Source: Desulfuromonadales bacterium (GTDB taxonomy: Bacteria; Desulfobacterota; Desulfuromonadia; Geobacterales; Pseudopelobacteraceae). Taken from it: 64,000 nucleotides of DNA. Numbering within the stretch: position 1 is the first letter of the stretch; every line of letters begins with the position of its first letter. The notes beneath the pieces are model-generated. The model saw only the letters and a list, made by a program, of their open reading frames with translations. It had not been told where the DNA came from and did not search any database. Below are positions 1-11,019 of the stretch, one piece after another. The position numbers were made by a program, and so were the translations under genes. The stretch covers positions 40,723 to 104,722 of the forward strand of contig DUZX01000009.1 of NCBI GenBank assembly GCA_013349325.1. The letters are read 5' to 3'.

Positions 1-2034
1 CTGCTTGCCATGCATGGTCGCGTACTCGTGTGGTTGAAACGTTATGAAGAAGGTTATCGCCGACTTCAAAAAGCATATTCACTGCAGAGCTCTGCATCTT
101 TGCTGGCCGAGATAGAGCGGGTAGAAGCATTACGAGACGTTGCGGCTGCCAACACGCTTCTGGTAGAGGGAAACCTGGCTGAAGGCGAAGCACTGCTGAA
201 AAAGGTCTACCTGCACGGGAAAGTTCGCTACGAATCCGGAATATTACTGGCACGCTCTACGTTTGAGCGTGGCGCTTTTCCGGAAGCAGCGGAAATTTTG
301 GCCGATCTGGTTGTCAGATACCCGCAGGAAAAGGATCTTCGTCCGCGCTATGTCCAGGCACTTGTCAATACCGGCAACGACTGGCAGGCTCTTACGTTTA
401 TTGACTCACTCCCCGAAAGGGAACTTGATGCCGAGCTTCTCACGATCCGGGGAAGACTCCTTTTTAAGGCCGGTGATGCTGCGGGGGCTATTCGCTCACT
501 GCGGACGTCCACAAATCCGCAACAAGCCCAAGAGATCGCCGTTGAACAGAAAAAAATTGCAGTGGCACAGGCACTTCAAAAAGCGGACCTGCTGCTGGCA
601 GCCGGGGACAATCAGCGGGCGGATGCTTTTTTTGCCGAACTTTGCAATAACCAGCAGACCCGCTACGAAGGGTGCCGTAAACGTGCCGCCCTGGCCTCAC
701 AAACCGGAAATCATGATCGGGCTGCCGCACTTTACACCCAGCTATCCGCCTTATATCCGTTGGAACCCGATTTTATGCTGCTTCAGGCGCAGGAGCTGGT
801 ACATCTTCAAAAACTGCAGGACGCATCAAACGTGCTGGACGTGTATCCCGATCAGAACAACAGCACCTTGTTATCGCTGCGCGGCAGCATCGCCCTGAAT
901 CGAAAAAATCTTGACGAGGCCATTGCATTTTACAGCCGCGCAGTCCCAACCTCAAAAGATCCGGAAACCAGCCGTAAGCTTAATTTAATACGCACAACCA
1001 AAGCACTTGAAACCGCCGAAGGTCATCTGGTGCAGAAAGAGTTTGCTGCTGCAGAGTCACTGCTCCACGACCTCTACAGGAACAGCTCGGATCAGTACAC
1101 TTCCGGACTCCTGCTCGGACGCACTCTGCTGGCACAGAAGAAAAATCGTGAAGCGGCACTGCTCTACCGCGAGCTGGAACTACGCTACCCCAAGGAGCCT
1201 GACCTGACTGCGCTGCGCGTGGAGTCGCATCTCCTGGCGCGGGAATATGCGGAAGCCGTTGCGGTGCTGCGCGAGACACCGCTAGCCGTGAAGGAGTATC
1301 TGGCACGGGAGCGCGAAGATTTGCTCTATCGGAGTACGGACAACTGGATGAAGCTTTCGGGCGGTGCTTATGGACAGTCCGGCTCTGCGTATTCCACCAC
1401 GGAGACGAACCTGACGCTGTCTGGTTCTCAACGGGTCAAACAGTTTTCGCTGACCGGCTGGACAGGGACCACGTCAAAATTTTCACAAACAGATAGTCAG
1501 ATCGGTTTGGGAATTGCCGGCGGCAAAGGTGAAAAATCACCATGTACATGGGAGGTTAATTTTTCTGCTTCACCTGAAGCCCGGATAGTACCACGTACCA
1601 CGATAGGATTTGAGCTGACACGCGGCTTCAAGAGCTTCGAAGCATCGCTTGGATATACCCGGATGGACTTTACTGATAGTAGCGCCAACATCTTGATTCC
1701 GGGAATTTTGTGGTATATCCCCGGCACGACATTTACGTTGTCGGAGCGCCTTTACTTCGTACCCGACAACGGTGGCTCTACGTTCCTCACGACACTGCAT
1801 CATGAACCCAGTCACCGCCTGCGCTGGTACGTAAGTCTTGGAGCAGGCACCGGCGCCGAGCGCATTGACGCTCATGACCATTACCTGCGCTCACAAACAG
1901 TATCAGCGAGAATCGGCAGCGAATATCGCTACACCCCGCACTACAGTATCGGTGCCGAGGGTTCGTTTGAAACCCGAGACCAGCTCTACGATCGCTCCGG
2001 CGCGTCCCTGTTCATGAGGTACTGGTGGCAATGA
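1..2034 (+). CDS. TPR-repeat protein with C-terminal outer-membrane beta-barrel (YaiO/PgaA/BcsC-like), 5'-truncated by window edge
   Basis: No stop codon in frame upstream of the ATG at 10; TPR-like repeats aa 1-430, then alternating beta-strand pattern ending ...GASLFMRYWWQ (terminal aromatic, typical of OM barrels). Confidence 0.75.
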   Translation: MLAMHGRVLVWLKRYEEGYRRLQKAYSLQSSASLLAEIERVEALRDVAAANTLLVEGNLAEGEALLKKVYLHGKVRYESGILLARSTFERGAFPEAAEILADLVVRYPQEKDLRPRYVQALVNTGNDWQALTFIDSLPERELDAELLTIRGRLLFKAGDAAGAIRSLRTSTNPQQAQEIAVEQKKIAVAQALQKADLLLAAGDNQRADAFFAELCNNQQTRYEGCRKRAALASQTGNHDRAAALYTQLSALYPLEPDFMLLQAQELVHLQKLQDASNVLDVYPDQNNSTLLSLRGSIALNRKNLDEAIAFYSRAVPTSKDPETSRKLNLIRTTKALETAEGHLVQKEFAAAESLLHDLYRNSSDQYTSGLLLGRTLLAQKKNREAALLYRELELRYPKEPDLTALRVESHLLAREYAEAVAVLRETPLAVKEYLAREREDLLYRSTDNWMKLSGGAYGQSGSAYSTTETNLTLSGSQRVKQFSLTGWTGTTSKFSQTDSQIGLGIAGGKGEKSPCTWEVNFSASPEARIVPRTTIGFELTRGFKSFEASLGYTRMDFTDSSANILIPGILWYIPGTTFTLSERLYFVPDNGGSTFLTTLHHEPSHRLRWYVSLGAGTGAERIDAHDHYLRSQTVSARIGSEYRYTPHYSIGAEGSFETRDQLYDRSGASLFMRYWWQ

Positions 2035-3218
2035 AACTGATCTATAGCTACTTCATTGATTTTCCGTTGTACCTGCGGGATACACTCATATTCTTTATCT
2101 GCCTCTTCTTCACCATGTCCGTTCTGCAACTGGTTTTTCTGATACTGCATAAAATGGTACTCGAACGCCGTGAAAAACGCTTTAAATTAAAAAAAGTGAT
2201 GTATTTTTCCAGCCTGACCAGAAATTTCGTCGATCCGGATCATCCTATCTATGCGCCGGTAGACGACCTTGAAACTCACGCTTTTATTGATGTCTGCGTG
2301 GATATAATGTCCGGAGTAAGTCGCCAGAACATGACCATAATCCATAAAGCCGTGCGAGAATTCGGAATCCCTGCTTTCCTGGTACGCAACTACAAAAAAA
2401 GCAGCCAATGGATCACGCACTATCAGATAGTTGAAACGCTCGGTTTTTTGAAACTTCCCGAACTCGCCCGGCTTTTTCGCGAAATCATTTCACAGGAAAT
2501 CGCACTTCTCGAAAAAAACAGGGCGCAGACAGAACAAAAGAAGCAGGGCTGGCTCTCTGATGTTCATAATCCGACAGCACGACATCTGCACCTGATTTCC
2601 AAAGCGCTCTGGGCACTGAGCCATATCTGCAACGATACTGATTTCCGTAACATCATCAGCGTGCTGCATACCCCCGGTTTTATGTCCGGCAAGTTCAATG
2701 AGTATATTTTTTGTAATATTATTGAAGCCTACCGACGGCGTGAACAAACCGGCGTGCTGTTGGATAAAATAGAAGAGCTCTTTGCAGATGATACCGTTTC
2801 ATTGCTCATAAAGCGTGATTTCATTCAGTCCTGCGGAATAGCGCACTTTACTCAAAGCCACACCCTGGTAGCGAACTGTACCGATATGTTCTTAACGTCA
2901 CCCGAAATAAAAATGGCCTGTATTCGCACGCTGGCCCAGATTGGAGACACACGGCTTGAGGAATTGACCTGCCTGTATCTTGAAGACAGTGACTGGCGCG
3001 TAAGGACTGTTGCGGCCAAAGATGCACACCTCTGTTCGGACGGCATTATTCCTGCCCTGCGCAAGGTTCTCTGCGACCGCAGCTATTATGTACGCCTGAA
3101 TGCAGCGCTGTCCCTGGCTCGCAAAGGTGAGGCGGGAAAAGCGGTCCTGCGGAGCTGTGCCGGCAGTAAAGATACGTACGAACATGACATGGCGCTGTAC
3201 GCCTTGAAACAGGGTTAG
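2025..3218 (+). CDS. membrane-anchored HEAT-repeat protein
   Basis: N-terminal TM (LIFFICLFFTMSVLQLVFLIL); HEAT-like repeats (DSDWRVRTVAAKDAHL, DRSYYVRLNAALSLARKGE); overlaps upstream CDS by 10 nt. Confidence 0.7.
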   Translation: MAMKLIYSYFIDFPLYLRDTLIFFICLFFTMSVLQLVFLILHKMVLERREKRFKLKKVMYFSSLTRNFVDPDHPIYAPVDDLETHAFIDVCVDIMSGVSRQNMTIIHKAVREFGIPAFLVRNYKKSSQWITHYQIVETLGFLKLPELARLFREIISQEIALLEKNRAQTEQKKQGWLSDVHNPTARHLHLISKALWALSHICNDTDFRNIISVLHTPGFMSGKFNEYIFCNIIEAYRRREQTGVLLDKIEELFADDTVSLLIKRDFIQSCGIAHFTQSHTLVANCTDMFLTSPEIKMACIRTLAQIGDTRLEELTCLYLEDSDWRVRTVAAKDAHLCSDGIIPALRKVLCDRSYYVRLNAALSLARKGEAGKAVLRSCAGSKDTYEHDMALYALKQG

Positions 3219-3221
3219 CCA

Positions 3222-4646
3222 ATGTCTGCATCCACCATAGTAACTCTGATACTACTTCTGCAGCTCGCCATCTTCATCTATTTCATACTCATAAATTCCC
3301 TCTACTCAATTTCCAATATCATCGCCTTTCTGGATATCCGCAGCCAGCTGGCAATATCGTCACGCCAGCATATCCGCAGCCTCGTTGCCGGCATCTACTA
3401 TCGCCCGATATCAATACTCGTACCGGCGTACAATGAAGCTGAAGTCGTGGCCACAAGTGTCAGGTTTCTCCTGAATCTACAGTTTCCGGAATACGAAGTC
3501 GTTGTCATTAACGACGGTTCAAGTGACGCAACACTTGAGATACTGGTCAACGAGTTCAGGATGGTCAAGGTCGAAAAGCCTTTCAAAAAGACGGTGCCAC
3601 ACGAACCGATCTACGGAATATATATCTCACCCGATCATCCGCACCTGCTGGTGCTTGACAAGGAAAACGGCGGCAAGGCCGATGCCTTGAATGCCGGGAT
3701 AAATGTATCGCAATACCCCCTTTTTTGTACCGTTGATGCCGACTCTCTTCTTGATGCAGACGCATTGATGCGGGCGGCGAAACTGTTTGTCGAAGATCGT
3801 GAAGTTGTAGCGACAGGTGGAATGGTCCGGGTGCTGAATGGCTGCCGGATAGTCAACGGAAAGATTGCAGAAATCTATGCACCTGACAGAGCACTTGAAA
3901 CCTTCCAATCGGTTGAGTATGTACGCGGCTTTCTGACCGGAAGAACAGCCTGGAATTTCACTAACAGTCTGATGGTTATTTCGGGTGCCTTCGGCATTTT
4001 TCGCAAGGACATTGCACTGGCTATTAACGGATACCGCAAATCCATGGGCGAAGATATGGACATCGTCGTGAGAATTCATCGGCACTGCCTTGAACAGAAG
4101 TTGAAATATAAAATCGTCTTTGTTCCGGATCCGGTGTGCTGGACCCAGGTACCAAGCGACTGGGCATCACTGCTGCGGCAGCGTAATCGTTGGCACCGGG
4201 GACTTATAGATTGCCTCTGGCACAACAAGGTAATGTTATTCAACCCTCGCTACAAAGCGGTCGGGCTCTTTGCCTTTCCCTATTTCCTGATTGTTGAAGC
4301 GCTGGGCCCTGCCATCGAATTTACGGGATATCTGGCATTCATTATTCTGGCGTTGTTTGGAATGTTGAACCGCGATATGGCTCTGCTCTTTATTATGCTT
4401 GCCATTGTGTGGGGCATGTCACTTAATCTTGGCGCAATTCTGCTTGACAACTTAATTTTTCGCCGCTACGAACGCGTTCGCGATCTGAGCAAGCTCTCAC
4501 TGTTTGCAGTTTTGGAATATCTGGGCTACCGGCAGCTGATTGTTGTCGAACGACTCTTTGCCACCGTAATGTCATTTCGAAAAGGTGAGTGGGGTAAACA
4601 AAATCGTAAGGAAATCATAAATGAACAACAAAAGCGGACTCGGTAA
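3222..4646 (+). CDS. processive family 2 glycosyltransferase (cellulose/chitin/PNAG synthase-like)
   Basis: INDGSSD, VDADS, GED and QRNRW (QxxRW) motifs plus multiple TM segments. Confidence 0.88.
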   Translation: MSASTIVTLILLLQLAIFIYFILINSLYSISNIIAFLDIRSQLAISSRQHIRSLVAGIYYRPISILVPAYNEAEVVATSVRFLLNLQFPEYEVVVINDGSSDATLEILVNEFRMVKVEKPFKKTVPHEPIYGIYISPDHPHLLVLDKENGGKADALNAGINVSQYPLFCTVDADSLLDADALMRAAKLFVEDREVVATGGMVRVLNGCRIVNGKIAEIYAPDRALETFQSVEYVRGFLTGRTAWNFTNSLMVISGAFGIFRKDIALAINGYRKSMGEDMDIVVRIHRHCLEQKLKYKIVFVPDPVCWTQVPSDWASLLRQRNRWHRGLIDCLWHNKVMLFNPRYKAVGLFAFPYFLIVEALGPAIEFTGYLAFIILALFGMLNRDMALLFIMLAIVWGMSLNLGAILLDNLIFRRYERVRDLSKLSLFAVLEYLGYRQLIVVERLFATVMSFRKGEWGKQNRKEIINEQQKRTR

Positions 4647-5130
4647 GTTTCTCTATTTTTTCCCCCGGTTGCTGTTAGTGGCCATTTTCCTCGGTTTTGT
4701 TGCGCTTACCGCACTCAGCAATTTTGACGTCATCGAGCCTTTACTCTTCCCGCTGCACGCGGCACAGGGAAAAATTCGGGAGGTTTCTCCCACTATCGTT
4801 ATTGGTCACTATCCGCATGGCAGCAAAGTAAGGGATTTAAAAAAGCAGGGTATCGTTGTTGATATTTGCCTGTTGAATCCGGCACTGCCTCAGGAGCGGG
4901 CGTTGATAGAACAGTTGCAGCGCTTTGCAGCAAGAGAGGGTATAGAAGTCAAAAACTTCCCGTTGAGTTATCTGAATCTGGGTAGTGCCGAGAACCGTAA
5001 GTCTGTAGCGCAGATCGTCGAGTTCATTCGACAGAATCCGGGGAAGAAAATGTACATCCACTGCTATCTGGGAAGACACCGGGTAAAGGTTGTGGAGGAT
5101 GAGTTGCGCCGCCTGGGAGTTATCCGCTGA
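4621..5130 (+). CDS. membrane-anchored dual-specificity/tyrosine phosphatase-like protein
   Basis: N-terminal TM and CX5R signature HCYLGRHR; overlaps GT2 by 26 nt. Confidence 0.7.
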   Translation: MNNKSGLGKFLYFFPRLLLVAIFLGFVALTALSNFDVIEPLLFPLHAAQGKIREVSPTIVIGHYPHGSKVRDLKKQGIVVDICLLNPALPQERALIEQLQRFAAREGIEVKNFPLSYLNLGSAENRKSVAQIVEFIRQNPGKKMYIHCYLGRHRVKVVEDELRRLGVIR

Positions 5131-5293: not shown

Positions 5294-7849
5294 ATGCAGA
5301 ATTCAACGCAGAATCCGAATGATAAAATTTCGGTAAATATTGAAGATGAAATGAAGCGTTCCTACATGGATTACGCCATGTCGGTTATCATCGGCCGGGC
5401 TCTGCCGGATGTGCGTGACGGCCTCAAACCGGTGCATCGCCGCTGCCTGTATGCCATGTATGACATGGGCAACGATTACAACAAACCGTATAAGAAATCG
5501 GCCCGTGTGGTCGGTGATGTTATCGGTAAGTATCATCCGCACGGCGATACTGCCGCCTACGATACCATCGTTCGTATGGCTCAGGATTTCTCCTTGCGCT
5601 ACATGCTGGTTGATGGTCAGGGTAACTTTGGTTCGGTGGACGGCGACCGTCCGGCGGCCATGCGTTACACCGAGATTCGTCTGCGTCAGCTGACCCATGA
5701 GCTTTTGGCCGATATTGATAAAGAAACCGTCAACATGGCACCCAACTACAATGACGAGATGGACGAACCGACCGTACTGCCGGCCAAATTCCCCAATCTG
5801 CTGGTGAACGGCTCAACCGGTATTGCCGTCGGCATGGCAACCAACATCCCGCCCCACAATCTGGTGGAAGTGTCCAACGCCATCATCGCCGTCATACAGA
5901 ACCCCGAAGTTACCTTTGAAGAGTTGCTGGCCTTGGTACCCGGCCCCGATTTTCCTACCGGCGCTACCATCTATGGCCGTCAGGGTATCCGCGATGCCTA
6001 CGCTACCGGACGCGGCATCATTCAGATCCGCGCCAAGGCGCATGTCGAGGCTTCCAAGCGCTCGGAGCGTCAGGCCATTGTTGTCACCGAGCTCCCCTAT
6101 CAGGTCAACAAGGCGCGTCTGATCGAGAAGATTGCCGAACTGGTCAAGGAGAAACGGGTTGAAGGGATTACCGAAATCCGCGATGAATCCGACCGTCAGG
6201 GGATGCGCATCGTCATCGAGGTCAAGCGCGACGAAAACGCCGAAGTGCTGCTGAATCAGCTCTACAAACAGAGCCAGCTGCAGGTTTCGTTCGGTATCAT
6301 CATGCTCGCGATTGTCCACAACCGCCCGCGCGTACTGAATCTGCGCGAGATGATAGACTGTTTTGTCGAACACCGCTGCGAAGTTGTCACTCGCCGCACC
6401 AACTTTGAGTTAAAGAAAGCGTTGGCCCGCGCTCACATTCTGGAAGGCCTCAAGATCGCTTTGGACTGGCTGGATGCTGTTATCGAAATGATCCGCGAAT
6501 CAAAAACACCACCTGAAGCTAAATTGGGACTGATGGAAGGCAAGTTCGCCGATCCGGAATTTTTAACGCGCCTCAACCTGCCGCGCCCGGACGGTTTTGA
6601 AGAAGCGGTCCATCTGACCGAAATACAGGCTCAGGCCATTCTGGAAATGCGTCTGCAGCGCCTGACTGGACTGGAACGGGACAAGATTATTGCCGAGTTC
6701 GAAGAAGTCATGAGACTTATCGCCCGTCTGCGCGAAATTCTGGCTTCCGATACCGAAATTCTCAAGATCATCGTTGGCGAGTTGACCGAAATCCGCGACA
6801 AGTTCGGCGACAAGCGCCGCTCCGAGATCGCCGACCAGAGTGCCGATATCTCGCGCGAAGACACCATCGAAGATGAGGAGATGGTCGTCACGATTTCACA
6901 CACCGGCTACATCAAGCGCAGTGCCGTTGACCTGTACCGTTCGCAACGGCGCGGCGGCAAAGGCAAGACCGGCATGAAGACCAAAGATGAGGATTTCGTC
7001 GAACAGCTCTTCATCGCTTCGACCAAGGACTTCCTGCTCTGCTTTACCGATGCCGGCCGCATGTACTGGCTCAAGGTCTATGAAATTCCGGAAGGAAGCC
7101 GCACCACCAAAGGAAAAGCGGTCGTCAACCTGGTCAATGTTTCGGATGGTGAAAAAATCACTACTATCCTGCCGGTCAAGGAGTTCAGCGAGAACACGTT
7201 CCTCTTTATGGCCACCCAGAACGGAGTCGTCAAAAAGACGCCGCTGGTAGACTACTCCAACGTACGCGTTGGCGGCATCATCGCCGTCAATCTGGATGAT
7301 GGCGACAAGTTGATATCGGTGGCCCTGACCGATGGCAGTAAGGACATCTTCCTGGCATCACGCGGCGGCAAAGCGATTCGCTTCAATGAAGAAGACGTCC
7401 GTCCGATGGGGCGCGTTACACGTGGTGTGCGTGGCATGAACCTCTCCGCAGACGACCGCGTAATCGGCATGGAGATCGTCGACAATACCGCCGTTGGCTC
7501 CACCATCTTCACCGTCTGTGAAAACGGCTTTGGCAAGCGTACCGACCTGGACGAGTATCGCGACCAGTCGCGCGGCGGCAAGGGCATTATCACGATCAAA
7601 ACCACCGAGCGCAACGGCGCCGTCGTTAACGTCATGCAGGTGGCTGATGATCACGACCTGATGGTGATCACCGACCAGGGCAAGATCCTGCGGGTGCCGG
7701 TTTCCGGCTTTTCGGTTATCGGTCGAAATACTCAGGGTGTGACTCTCATGAATACCGAAGATAACGAGAAGGTCGTAGCTGTAGCACGTCTGGCTGAAAA
7801 GGATGAAGATGAACTTGACGGAGGAGCCGAAGAAGAAGCAGAGGTGTAG
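5294..7849 (+). CDS. gyrA: DNA gyrase subunit A
   Basis: [43 protein letters not shown]; full-length 851 aa with C-terminal beta-pinwheel repeats. Confidence 0.98.
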
Positions 7850-7850
7850 T

Positions 7851-10070
7851 TTACGCTATTTCGAGGCCGGCAAATCTGACGAGCAGTTTTTTTAAACCGA
7901 CAGAATTAAAGGTGATGATCACTTTTTGGTCATCACCTTCGCCTTCAATTTTATTGAGCGTTCCGACGCCAAACTTGGCGTGACGCAGTTTCATGCCGAG
8001 ACGCAGGCTACCATGAGACTCTTGAGGTTCCGGAATCACTTCAATCTCGTTGGACGCCAATTCGGATAATCCGGCCAGATTGTGAGATTTCGTATCCGGA
8101 ATCGTTTCTGAATAATAGATTTTAGATCTGCTTGCTGGATCCGAATGACCAAAACCCACCGACCATGCCTCATCCCGCCACTGTTCGATGCACTCGGACG
8201 GAATTTCTTCAAGGAAACGGGACGACGGGTTTCTCGTCCAGGAACCGTACTGGATCCTACTCCTGGCGTGCGTTATGTAGAGTCGCTCCTTGGCCCTGGT
8301 AATCGAGACATAACACAGGCGCCGTTCCTCTTCCATTTCGCTGCGACTCCCCAATGAACGACTGTGCGGAAAGATCCCCTCCTCGGCACCAACGATAAAA
8401 CAGACACCAAACTCAAGCCCCTTGGCCGAATGCATCGTCAACAGCGTTACCCGATCTCCTCTTTGTTCATCATCCATGCTGGACACCAGCGCAGCCTTTT
8501 CAAGAAACGCTTCCAGCGTATGTTCCTGCGCATTTTCATCAAAATCTGTGGCAACAGAAATCAGTTCCTTGATGTTTTCAAGCTGGGTAAGCGCCTTTTC
8601 CGTACCCTCCTCCATCAAAACGCTTTCGTAACCCGATTCAATAATGACGCTCTCCACAAGCTGAGCCAGCGGAACCGTGGTAACCATGCCCTGCAGTTTC
8701 GTCATAATATGAGCGAAAACCGCTACTTTCGGCGATTTTTTTTCTTCATGGTTCAGCACCGCCGCAAACAGAGATGTACCCTGGGAGGCCGCCTTTTCAG
8801 CCAGCTTATCGATGGTCTGCTTGCCGATGCCACGAGCCGGCACGTTGATGATGCGACGCAGCGCCATATCATCGGACGTGTTGCTTAAAAGCCGCAGATA
8901 CGCCAGAACATCCTTGATTTCAAGCCGGTCATAGAAGCGTAAACCGCCGACGATGGCGTACGGAATACCGGCCCGCATGAGTGCTTCCTCGATGCTCCTG
9001 GACTGGGCATTCATCCGGTATAACACCGCCTGATCAGAGTAGCTGAATCCGCTTTTTATCCCCTTATGAATCTGCTCAGCAACGTATTTTCCCTCTTCGC
9101 GTTGATCCTCCAGCTCGGCGACCACAATTTTGTGATCGTGACTGTTCTCCGTAAACAACGTCTTGCTTTTTCGGCGTTGATTATTGGCAATCACAGCATT
9201 GGCTGCTTGCAGAATGCGCTGACCGCAACGGTAGTTCTGTTCCAGCTTTATTATTTTTGCATCAGGAAAATCTTTTTCAAAGTCGAGAATATTGCGAATA
9301 TCGGCACCACGCCAACTGTAGACAGACTGATCGGCATCCCCGATAACACACAGATTGCCTGTTCTGGCGGCCAACAGGCGCGCTATCTGATACTGGACAT
9401 GGTTGGTATCCTGATATTCGTCAATCTGAATGTAGTCGAAGTGTTCCTGCCAGCGCCTTAGAACCTCCTCGTTCTTTTGAAACAGCTGCAGCGTCAACGT
9501 CAACAGGTCGCCGAAATCGACCGTATTCATGTTCCGTAAATGTTCCTGGTAATGCGTGTAGATACGGAGGTATTTGTCATGATCGCAGGGTGCATTCACG
9601 GTTACTTTTCCCGGCAGTTCACCCCTGTTTTTACACTCATCGATAAAATGTCCGACAAAAGCAGGCTTGAAGCGCGTGCTGTCAAGGTTACAGGCTGCCG
9701 TTGATTCGGTGATCGCTTTACGCACATCATCCATATCAAGGATCGTAAATTTTGAATTATAGGAGGGATCGAGCAGGTGAATGTCCTGGCGTAAAATCCG
9801 TGAGCAAAAGCTGTGAAAGGTGCTGACAACCGGTCGTTCACCCTTGATAAGCCGGGTAACCCGTTCTGACATTTCCCGGGCAGCCTTATTTGTGAAGGTC
9901 ATGGAGAGTATTTTATAGACCGGTACGCCGTCTTTAACCAGCCGCGCAATACGGTGGGTAATGACGCGCGTTTTACCGGAACCGGCCCCCGCCAGAATCA
10001 GCATCGGTCCGTCCGTATGCAGGATTGCCTCGCGTTGCGGGTCGTTAAACAGTGTCAGGTCATCTGTCAT
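7851..10070 (-). CDS. UvrD/PcrA-type superfamily I DNA helicase
   Basis: LAGAGSGKTRVITHRIA, DEYQDTN, SWRGADI, LLTMHSAKGLEF motifs; start at internal Met MTDDLTLFN (10070) because the ORF start at 10217 overlaps flgL. Confidence 0.95.
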   Translation of the reverse strand: MTDDLTLFNDPQREAILHTDGPMLILAGAGSGKTRVITHRIARLVKDGVPVYKILSMTFTNKAAREMSERVTRLIKGERPVVSTFHSFCSRILRQDIHLLDPSYNSKFTILDMDDVRKAITESTAACNLDSTRFKPAFVGHFIDECKNRGELPGKVTVNAPCDHDKYLRIYTHYQEHLRNMNTVDFGDLLTLTLQLFQKNEEVLRRWQEHFDYIQIDEYQDTNHVQYQIARLLAARTGNLCVIGDADQSVYSWRGADIRNILDFEKDFPDAKIIKLEQNYRCGQRILQAANAVIANNQRRKSKTLFTENSHDHKIVVAELEDQREEGKYVAEQIHKGIKSGFSYSDQAVLYRMNAQSRSIEEALMRAGIPYAIVGGLRFYDRLEIKDVLAYLRLLSNTSDDMALRRIINVPARGIGKQTIDKLAEKAASQGTSLFAAVLNHEEKKSPKVAVFAHIMTKLQGMVTTVPLAQLVESVIIESGYESVLMEEGTEKALTQLENIKELISVATDFDENAQEHTLEAFLEKAALVSSMDDEQRGDRVTLLTMHSAKGLEFGVCFIVGAEEGIFPHSRSLGSRSEMEEERRLCYVSITRAKERLYITHARSRIQYGSWTRNPSSRFLEEIPSECIEQWRDEAWSVGFGHSDPASRSKIYYSETIPDTKSHNLAGLSELASNEIEVIPEPQESHGSLRLGMKLRHAKFGVGTLNKIEGEGDDQKVIITFNSVGLKKLLVRFAGLEIA

Positions 10071-10089
10071 GAAGTCGGAAATCGGGGCG

Positions 10090-11019
10090 TTACAAATAAT
10101 TAAGCAGAGAGAGTTGTGAAATCTTGGCCGTAGTGGAGAGTGATGCTTGATAGGCGGTCGTCTGACTACTGAGTTCGACTCCCAGCTGGGCAAGATCGAC
10201 ATTCTGAATTTTGTCAAGCATGCTCTGCAGCATGTTTTTATTGGTATCGTTCAGTGTACTGATCGTGTCAAGTCGTGTCATACGGGTAATATTATCACCG
10301 ACGGCGTTGGTTATCTGGACAAATCCGGCCTGCAGATCCGTTGCTCCTTGCGCGAGATCGGTAGCATTAGATGCTATGTTCCTGTCACCCACGGCGGTGA
10401 TCAGATTGTCAAAGGTCTCTAAAATATTGGTTTCACCGTATGACGGCGGCGGTGCTGTAACCGATCCTAAGAGCAGTCGATCACCGGTTATACTGACCGC
10501 CTGATCGGTTCCCCTGGCAATTTCAATTGTCAACTGGGTGCTGTTGGGATCCGCTGCACCAGCATACGCATTGTCGGTGTTAGTAAACGGTGGAACATTA
10601 CTCTTGCCGCCGCTAAATATGTACTGATCCCCGATTTGGGTATTTGCCATGTCCACCATCTGCTTTTTGAGGTCAACCAGTTGATCATGGGCACTCTGCC
10701 TTATCGATGGATCAGATGTTCCGGAACTGATGCTGCTGACCAACTTCTTGGCCTGTGCCATGATATCGGTCATGCCGGTCAGAGCGGTATTGGTAAAGCT
10801 TACCCAGGTATTAGCCTTGGTGATTGAGGTTGCATACTGGTCGAGCGCTTTCAGGCGGTCGCCGATATCCATCAGCACGCCGCTTGATGTCGGATCATCG
10901 CTCGGGCGGTTGACCTTTTGCTGTGTTGCAATCGATTCCTGCAATGCATCCAGTTTTATACGCCCTTGCTGAAGGTTGTAAATGGTATTGCTTGCGATTG
11001 AATTTTGCGTAACTCGCAT
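10090..11019 (-). CDS. flgL: flagellar hook-associated protein 3
   Basis: MRVTQNSIASNTIYNLQQGRIKLDALQESIATQQKVNRPSDDP; follows flgK. Confidence 0.95.
   Translation of the reverse strand: MRVTQNSIASNTIYNLQQGRIKLDALQESIATQQKVNRPSDDPTSSGVLMDIGDRLKALDQYATSITKANTWVSFTNTALTGMTDIMAQAKKLVSSISSGTSDPSIRQSAHDQLVDLKKQMVDMANTQIGDQYIFSGGKSNVPPFTNTDNAYAGAADPNSTQLTIEIARGTDQAVSITGDRLLLGSVTAPPPSYGETNILETFDNLITAVGDRNIASNATDLAQGATDLQAGFVQITNAVGDNITRMTRLDTISTLNDTNKNMLQSMLDKIQNVDLAQLGVELSSQTTAYQASLSTTAKISQLSLLNYL

Follow-up and report, generated by a model that had tools for sequence, protein, structure and literature searches.

Results

Organization of the locus

The window, a 64,000-nucleotide stretch of Desulfuromonadales DNA (G000:C9:40723-104722), opens with the end of an operon whose product is probably an exported surface sugar polymer. 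The initial annotation of this DNA described a unit of four genes at 1-5130, encoding a TPR-barrel protein, a HEAT-repeat protein, a family-2 glycosyltransferase (GT2) and a phosphatase. The list of open reading frames (ORFs) puts all four on the plus strand and agrees with this layout and with the spacing reported, namely a 10-nt overlap between the TPR-barrel and HEAT genes, a 3-nt gap between the HEAT and GT2 genes and a 26-nt overlap between the GT2 and phosphatase genes, and the motifs described for the four proteins are present on re-examination. An ATG at 2031 in the HEAT gene overlaps the TPR-barrel stop codon as ATGA, so that the HEAT start may be 2031 and the first overlap may really be 4 nt. 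Extension upstream of position 1 completed the TPR-barrel gene and added a co-directional GH18-like gene, which ends on base 1 of the TPR-barrel gene, and a divergent GH5-like gene (Table 1). The four genes initially described are real, but the unit to which they belong comprises five co-directional genes plus the divergent GH5-like one.

Table 1. Genes of the operon, in window coordinates unless a locus (L002) or contig (G000:C9) is named
Feature	Position	Strand	Basis
GH5-like lipoprotein gene, 731 aa, divergent, upstream of window	L002:6771-8966	-	label from sequence only
GH18-like TIM-barrel gene, upstream of window	L002:9039-10526	+	AF2/Foldseek, weak assignment
TPR repeats and C-terminal YaiO-type outer-membrane beta-barrel, 743 aa	1..2034, 5' part cut by window edge	+	Pfam TPR_19, YaiO PF19413, TIGR04390
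Complete TPR-barrel gene	L002:10526-12757 = G000:C9:40525-42756, start 198 bases upstream of window	+	
Membrane-anchored HEAT-repeat protein	2025-3218 (GTG 2025) or 2031..3218 (ATG 2031)	+	HEAT_2
Family-2 glycosyltransferase, processive membrane synthase with QRNRW, 474 aa	3222..4646	+	Pfam/NCBIfam, invariant catalytic motifs
Membrane-anchored CX5R dual-specificity-type phosphatase, 169 aa	4621..5130	+	AF2 and Foldseek; topology by K/R bias

No Rfam family matched around the operon. In the interval from the phosphatase gene to its downstream neighbour, no site resembling a promoter or terminator was detected. As read from the ORFs, a gyrA-like gene (window 5294-7849) follows the operon, a UvrD/PcrA-type helicase gene (window 7851-10217) comes next on the opposite strand, and an Mla-like lipid-transport cluster lies upstream (L002:332-4322).

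Domain analysis of the encoded proteins

The first gene encodes a YaiO-type barrel, with matches to PF19413 (E 4e-13) and TIGR04390 (62 bits, cut-off 32) that exceed the cut-offs, and the combination of TPR repeats with an outer-membrane barrel known from diderm synthase-dependent secretion is present at the window's locus. The GT2 is a membrane synthase of the processive type (PF13641, E 1e-21), and its DGS, DxD, GED and Q-R-x-R-W motifs are invariant across 53 relatives. Its best NCBIfam model is that of PgaC/IcaA, on which it scores far below the threshold for a PNAG synthase (131 bits, cut-off 422); the cellulose synthase model TIGR03030 gives 36 bits against 699, and PilZ was not matched.

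The HEAT protein of the window matches HEAT_2 (E 6e-11), and Pfam HEAT repeats of this kind were found in all 69 members of its family. It has one N-terminal TM segment, and of 68 family members 67 have more K/R after this segment than before it, by which the repeats are predicted to face the cytosol. Such a topology fits a cytosolic partner of the synthase, with the barrel, the hydrolases and the phosphatase acting outside.

The phosphatase matched no Pfam family above the cut-off, and neither it nor the GH18-like protein gave a usable match to the PDB by sequence, so AF2 modelling and Foldseek were applied to both. The phosphatase model (pLDDT 85) matched dual-specificity phosphatases with a Foldseek probability of 1.00, among them plant PFA-DSP, starch/glucan phosphatases such as SEX4, and TpbA, at TM-scores of about 0.45-0.58 that leave the subfamilies unseparated. 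HCYLG..RV is invariant in seven relatives, and model, fold matches and motif together identify a dual-specificity phosphatase fold with an HCX5R loop. Its activity is uncertain: the small alignment of seven homologues shows no invariant Asp that could be the general acid, and Val follows the P-loop Arg. The catalytic domain is predicted to be periplasmic. Longer membrane phosphatases, seemingly with further phosphatase-like domains after the HCYLG one, are encoded in relatives at L054:12531-14312, L032:12491-14185 and L025:5411-6943.

The hydrolase assignments are weak. The GH18-like TIM barrel was modelled on the Geobacter argillaceus homologue, and many GH18 chitinases are among its best PDB matches; as the TM-scores are modest and some unrelated folds also appear, the label is a lead short of an assignment. 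The putative GH5-like lipoprotein matched no Pfam or NCBIfam family.

Co-occurrence of the HEAT protein and the synthase

The GT2 alignment alone was used as bait, and the best 80 loci were fetched from 85,462 species genomes. A HEAT homologue, recognized with the HEAT family profile, occurs in 79 of the 82 distinct loci, which are the best by GT2 similarity alone. Two of the remaining three (L060 and L086) have the GT2 at a contig end, and the third (L079) is a 13.7-kb Nitrospira stretch that stops soon after the barrel gene, where the related locus L076 has its HEAT gene. The HEAT gene lies directly beside the GT2 gene in at least 73 of 83 loci, usually ending at or just before the GT2 start; this is an undercount, because ORF picking dropped some HEAT genes, while the figure of 79 counts presence in the locus. 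Three Nitrospira loci (L070, L076 and L091) have a rearranged operon in which the GT2 is divergent from the GH18-like and barrel genes and the HEAT gene is near but non-adjacent.

A survey of 297 genomes of the window's phylum (GT2 threshold E below 1e-60) revealed the GT2 in 18 genomes, all unbroken copies falling below E 1e-158. One of these was left out as non-evaluable, its contig being 1.9 kb long, and all 17 others have a HEAT gene in the locus, mostly adjacent. The family profile resolved its presence; outside the order, a single-sequence HEAT search of the phylum returned only weak repeat matches. The HEAT gene also directly precedes the GT2 gene on seven named plasmids (Mesorhizobium, Salinirubellus, Deinococcus, Bacteroides, Legionella, Emticicia and Erythrobacter), the Salinirubellus copy being haloarchaeal; six of these HEAT genes are annotated as such, and the "hypothetical" one of Emticicia matches the profile with E 7e-19. 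A Bacillus mycoides plasmid encodes a longer GT2 that scores 207 bits on the family model. By genome labels, which for metagenome bins may singly be wrong, the pair stands side by side in about 17 bacterial and archaeal phyla, Bacillota included.

The partnership of HEAT protein and GT2 proposed from the window thus recurs in distant genomes. Failure of the two to co-occur elsewhere would have spoken against the initial annotation, and this check comes out clearly in its favour: the HEAT protein truly belongs to the core of the system together with the synthase. In a maximum-likelihood tree all HEAT-linked GT2s fall on one side of a branch; its support is weak (60/73; 66% of bootstrap trees), so that a single origin of these enzymes is likely, short of demonstrated.

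Conservation of the operon and its accessory genes

The synteny search found the full five-gene order in two other loci, L010 and L011, the latter on the same contig as L021 (Geobacter argillaceus). Locus L012 (G025:C63, ~6640-9000) holds fragments of GH18-like, TPR-barrel, HEAT and phosphatase genes with broken frames and no GT2 seen, and seems to be a degenerate remnant of such an operon. A HEAT match was found in 5 of 58 genomes of the order, and among nine genomes of the genus a strong one occurs in the window genome only; the operon is therefore patchily distributed, which may reflect gain by transfer or repeated loss.

The YaiO-type barrel was found in 30 of 47 diderm loci, some of the other 17 being affected by contig ends, versus 1 of 34 Bacillota loci, a distribution that suits an exporter of the outer membrane. 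The GH5-like gene is present in 6 of the diderm and 26 of the Bacillota loci, and the GH18-like gene in 13 of each. Among 16 further loci of the window's phylum, 15 have the barrel, 9 the GH5-like gene and 2 the phosphatase. The phosphatase, which the initial annotation treated as a defining part, occurs in 8 of 82 loci overall (6/47 diderm, 2/34 Bacillota); this distribution rules it out as a core component, and it is an accessory only.

In 60 of 83 loci (one genome entering twice) the operon includes a receiver-domain gene, versus 1 to 6 loci for three control positions, and 21 loci have a single-domain receiver upstream. Several of the longer receiver proteins are Hpt-REC-GGDEF-REC. Most related operons (L021-L100) thus have receiver genes, some with GGDEF, and none was found at the window's own locus in the stretch read. 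The further proposal that the HEAT protein and the phosphatase replace c-di-GMP modules fails as a general statement, because regulators of the receiver or GGDEF type are encoded within the operons of many relatives.

HexNAc-type nucleotide-sugar dehydrogenases adjoin 12 Bacillota loci, and the Legionella locus encodes TviB- and TviC-like enzymes; these sugar dehydrogenases belong to distant relatives and are absent from the window's locus. In Emticicia, an LTA synthase-like gene adjoins the HEAT-GT2 pair.

Discussion

A proposed synthase-dependent secretion class with a HEAT partner

The operon is best explained, with reasonable but incomplete confidence, as an accessory-rich form of a widespread and apparently undescribed class of synthase-dependent polysaccharide secretion systems, the core of which is the GT2 synthase with a membrane-anchored HEAT protein. 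Its synthase-dependent type, an architecture distinct from those of Pga, Bcs, Nfr and Yai and the HEAT protein as a conserved partner had all been proposed from the window and are supported. The GT2 would polymerise a nucleotide sugar, perhaps of the HexNAc or HexNAc-uronate type, and thread the chain through the inner membrane; the HexNAc-type dehydrogenases of the Bacillota loci and the TviB- and TviC-like enzymes of Legionella were counted in favour of this explanation. The cytosolic HEAT repeats in all likelihood bind the GT2 and regulate it, in many relatives possibly under a receiver-domain protein from the same operon. Carrying the chain through the periplasm and then the outer membrane would, in diderms, be the task of the TPR-YaiO barrel. 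The two hydrolase-like proteins (GH18-like and GH5-like) may trim or release the chain, and the accessory phosphatase would work beyond the cytosol, its substrate being a polymer, lipid or regulator that carries phosphate.

A broader and more speculative proposal, which we regard as doubtful, is that HEAT-GT2 is an ancient bacterial and archaeal synthase class in which the membrane HEAT protein hands a phosphorelay signal on from an operon-encoded receiver to the synthase, a mode of control other than c-di-GMP gating of the PilZ or PgaD type, and to which diderms added the YaiO barrel.

One alternative, compatible with the secretion system proposed here, concerns the phosphatase, which might regulate through a protein target in the manner of the periplasmic TpbA of Pseudomonas aeruginosa. 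The predicted periplasmic location and the presence of TpbA among the fold matches make this a possible, if tentative, reading; however, TpbA appears there alongside SEX4-like glucan phosphatases at TM-scores that do not separate the subfamilies, and the activity itself is uncertain given the Val after the P-loop Arg and the lack of an invariant Asp. The window's enzyme shares with TpbA and the glucan phosphatases the dual-specificity phosphatase fold and HCX5R loop, and differs in these two features and in its N-terminal membrane anchor.

A further alternative, in which the product of the GT2 is no exported polymer but a glycan linked to lipid or wall and the barrel serves something else, is unlikely. 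The core pair does occur without a barrel in Bacillota and archaea, and the LTA synthase-like neighbour in Emticicia would suit a linked glycan, but the processive Q-R-x-R-W motif is invariant, the barrels track diderm envelopes, and the operon contains hydrolases, as cellulose and PNAG operons do.

To our knowledge, few synthase-dependent polysaccharide systems have been characterised, namely cellulose, PNAG, alginate, Pel and Nfr. If the secretion class proposed here is real, a further one with an invariant HEAT partner extends from Bacillota to haloarchaea, and it would explain the likely matrix or capsule production in many genomes whose annotation stops at "HEAT repeat domain-containing protein" and "glycosyltransferase". 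A testable question is raised as well, namely whether HEAT proteins gate the synthase and whether they do so in response to a receiver protein. Full-text searches of the open literature, which leaves aside most subscription journals, listed no title or abstract with an earlier description of a HEAT-GT2 system. A word search of a classification of synthase-dependent operons (PMC7112194) found neither HEAT nor YaiO, and in another paper (PMC12419801) the single mention of HEAT is unrelated.

Comparison with known systems

Scored with the family model, the seven named members reach 396-633 bits and the E. coli synthases PgaC, YaiP, BcsA and NfrB 129, 50, 31 and 19, respectively. The distinction from the Pga, Bcs and Nfr loci drawn in the initial annotation holds against these scores, and, judged by them and by gene content, the operon is neither a YaiO/YaiP locus nor one of the Pga, Bcs or Nfr kind.

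That the operon is a divergent PNAG (Pga/Ica) locus, in which the GT2 is a PgaC ortholog and the HEAT and GH18-like proteins substitute for PgaD and PgaB, respectively, is quite improbable: PgaC/IcaA is the nearest NCBIfam model of the GT2, PgaC comes closest among the four E. coli synthases scored and PgaA is likewise a TPR-barrel protein, but the GT2 reaches only 131 of the 422 bits of the model cut-off, PgaC stays at 129 bits where named family members begin at 396, none of the six genes matches a deacetylase family, that of PgaB/IcaB included, in Pfam or NCBIfam, and the HEAT protein is unrelated to PgaD by profile. What the operon shares with PgaABCD/IcaADBC is a TPR-barrel outer-membrane protein, a processive GT2 and a hydrolase in the operon; it differs in its HEAT partner and in lacking the deacetylase and PgaD.

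With BcsABZC it has in common a TPR-barrel exporter, a GT2 synthase and a glycoside hydrolase, and it differs in having neither a PilZ-bearing BcsA nor BcsB and in the low score of BcsA. E. coli NfrA/NfrB/YbcH likewise pairs a TPR-type outer-membrane protein with a GT2; no HEAT protein is annotated there, NfrB is c-di-GMP-activated by annotation, and its 19 bits place it outside the family. YbcH (L168:3092-3982) matches the GH18-like family very weakly, at 11 bits; the two may be periplasmic hydrolases of one kind. E. coli YaiO/YaiP/YaiS has the same YaiO-type barrel together with a GT2; it differs in having no annotated HEAT protein, in YaiS, annotated as a deacetylase, and in YaiP, whose 50 bits set it apart from the synthases of the HEAT-linked family.
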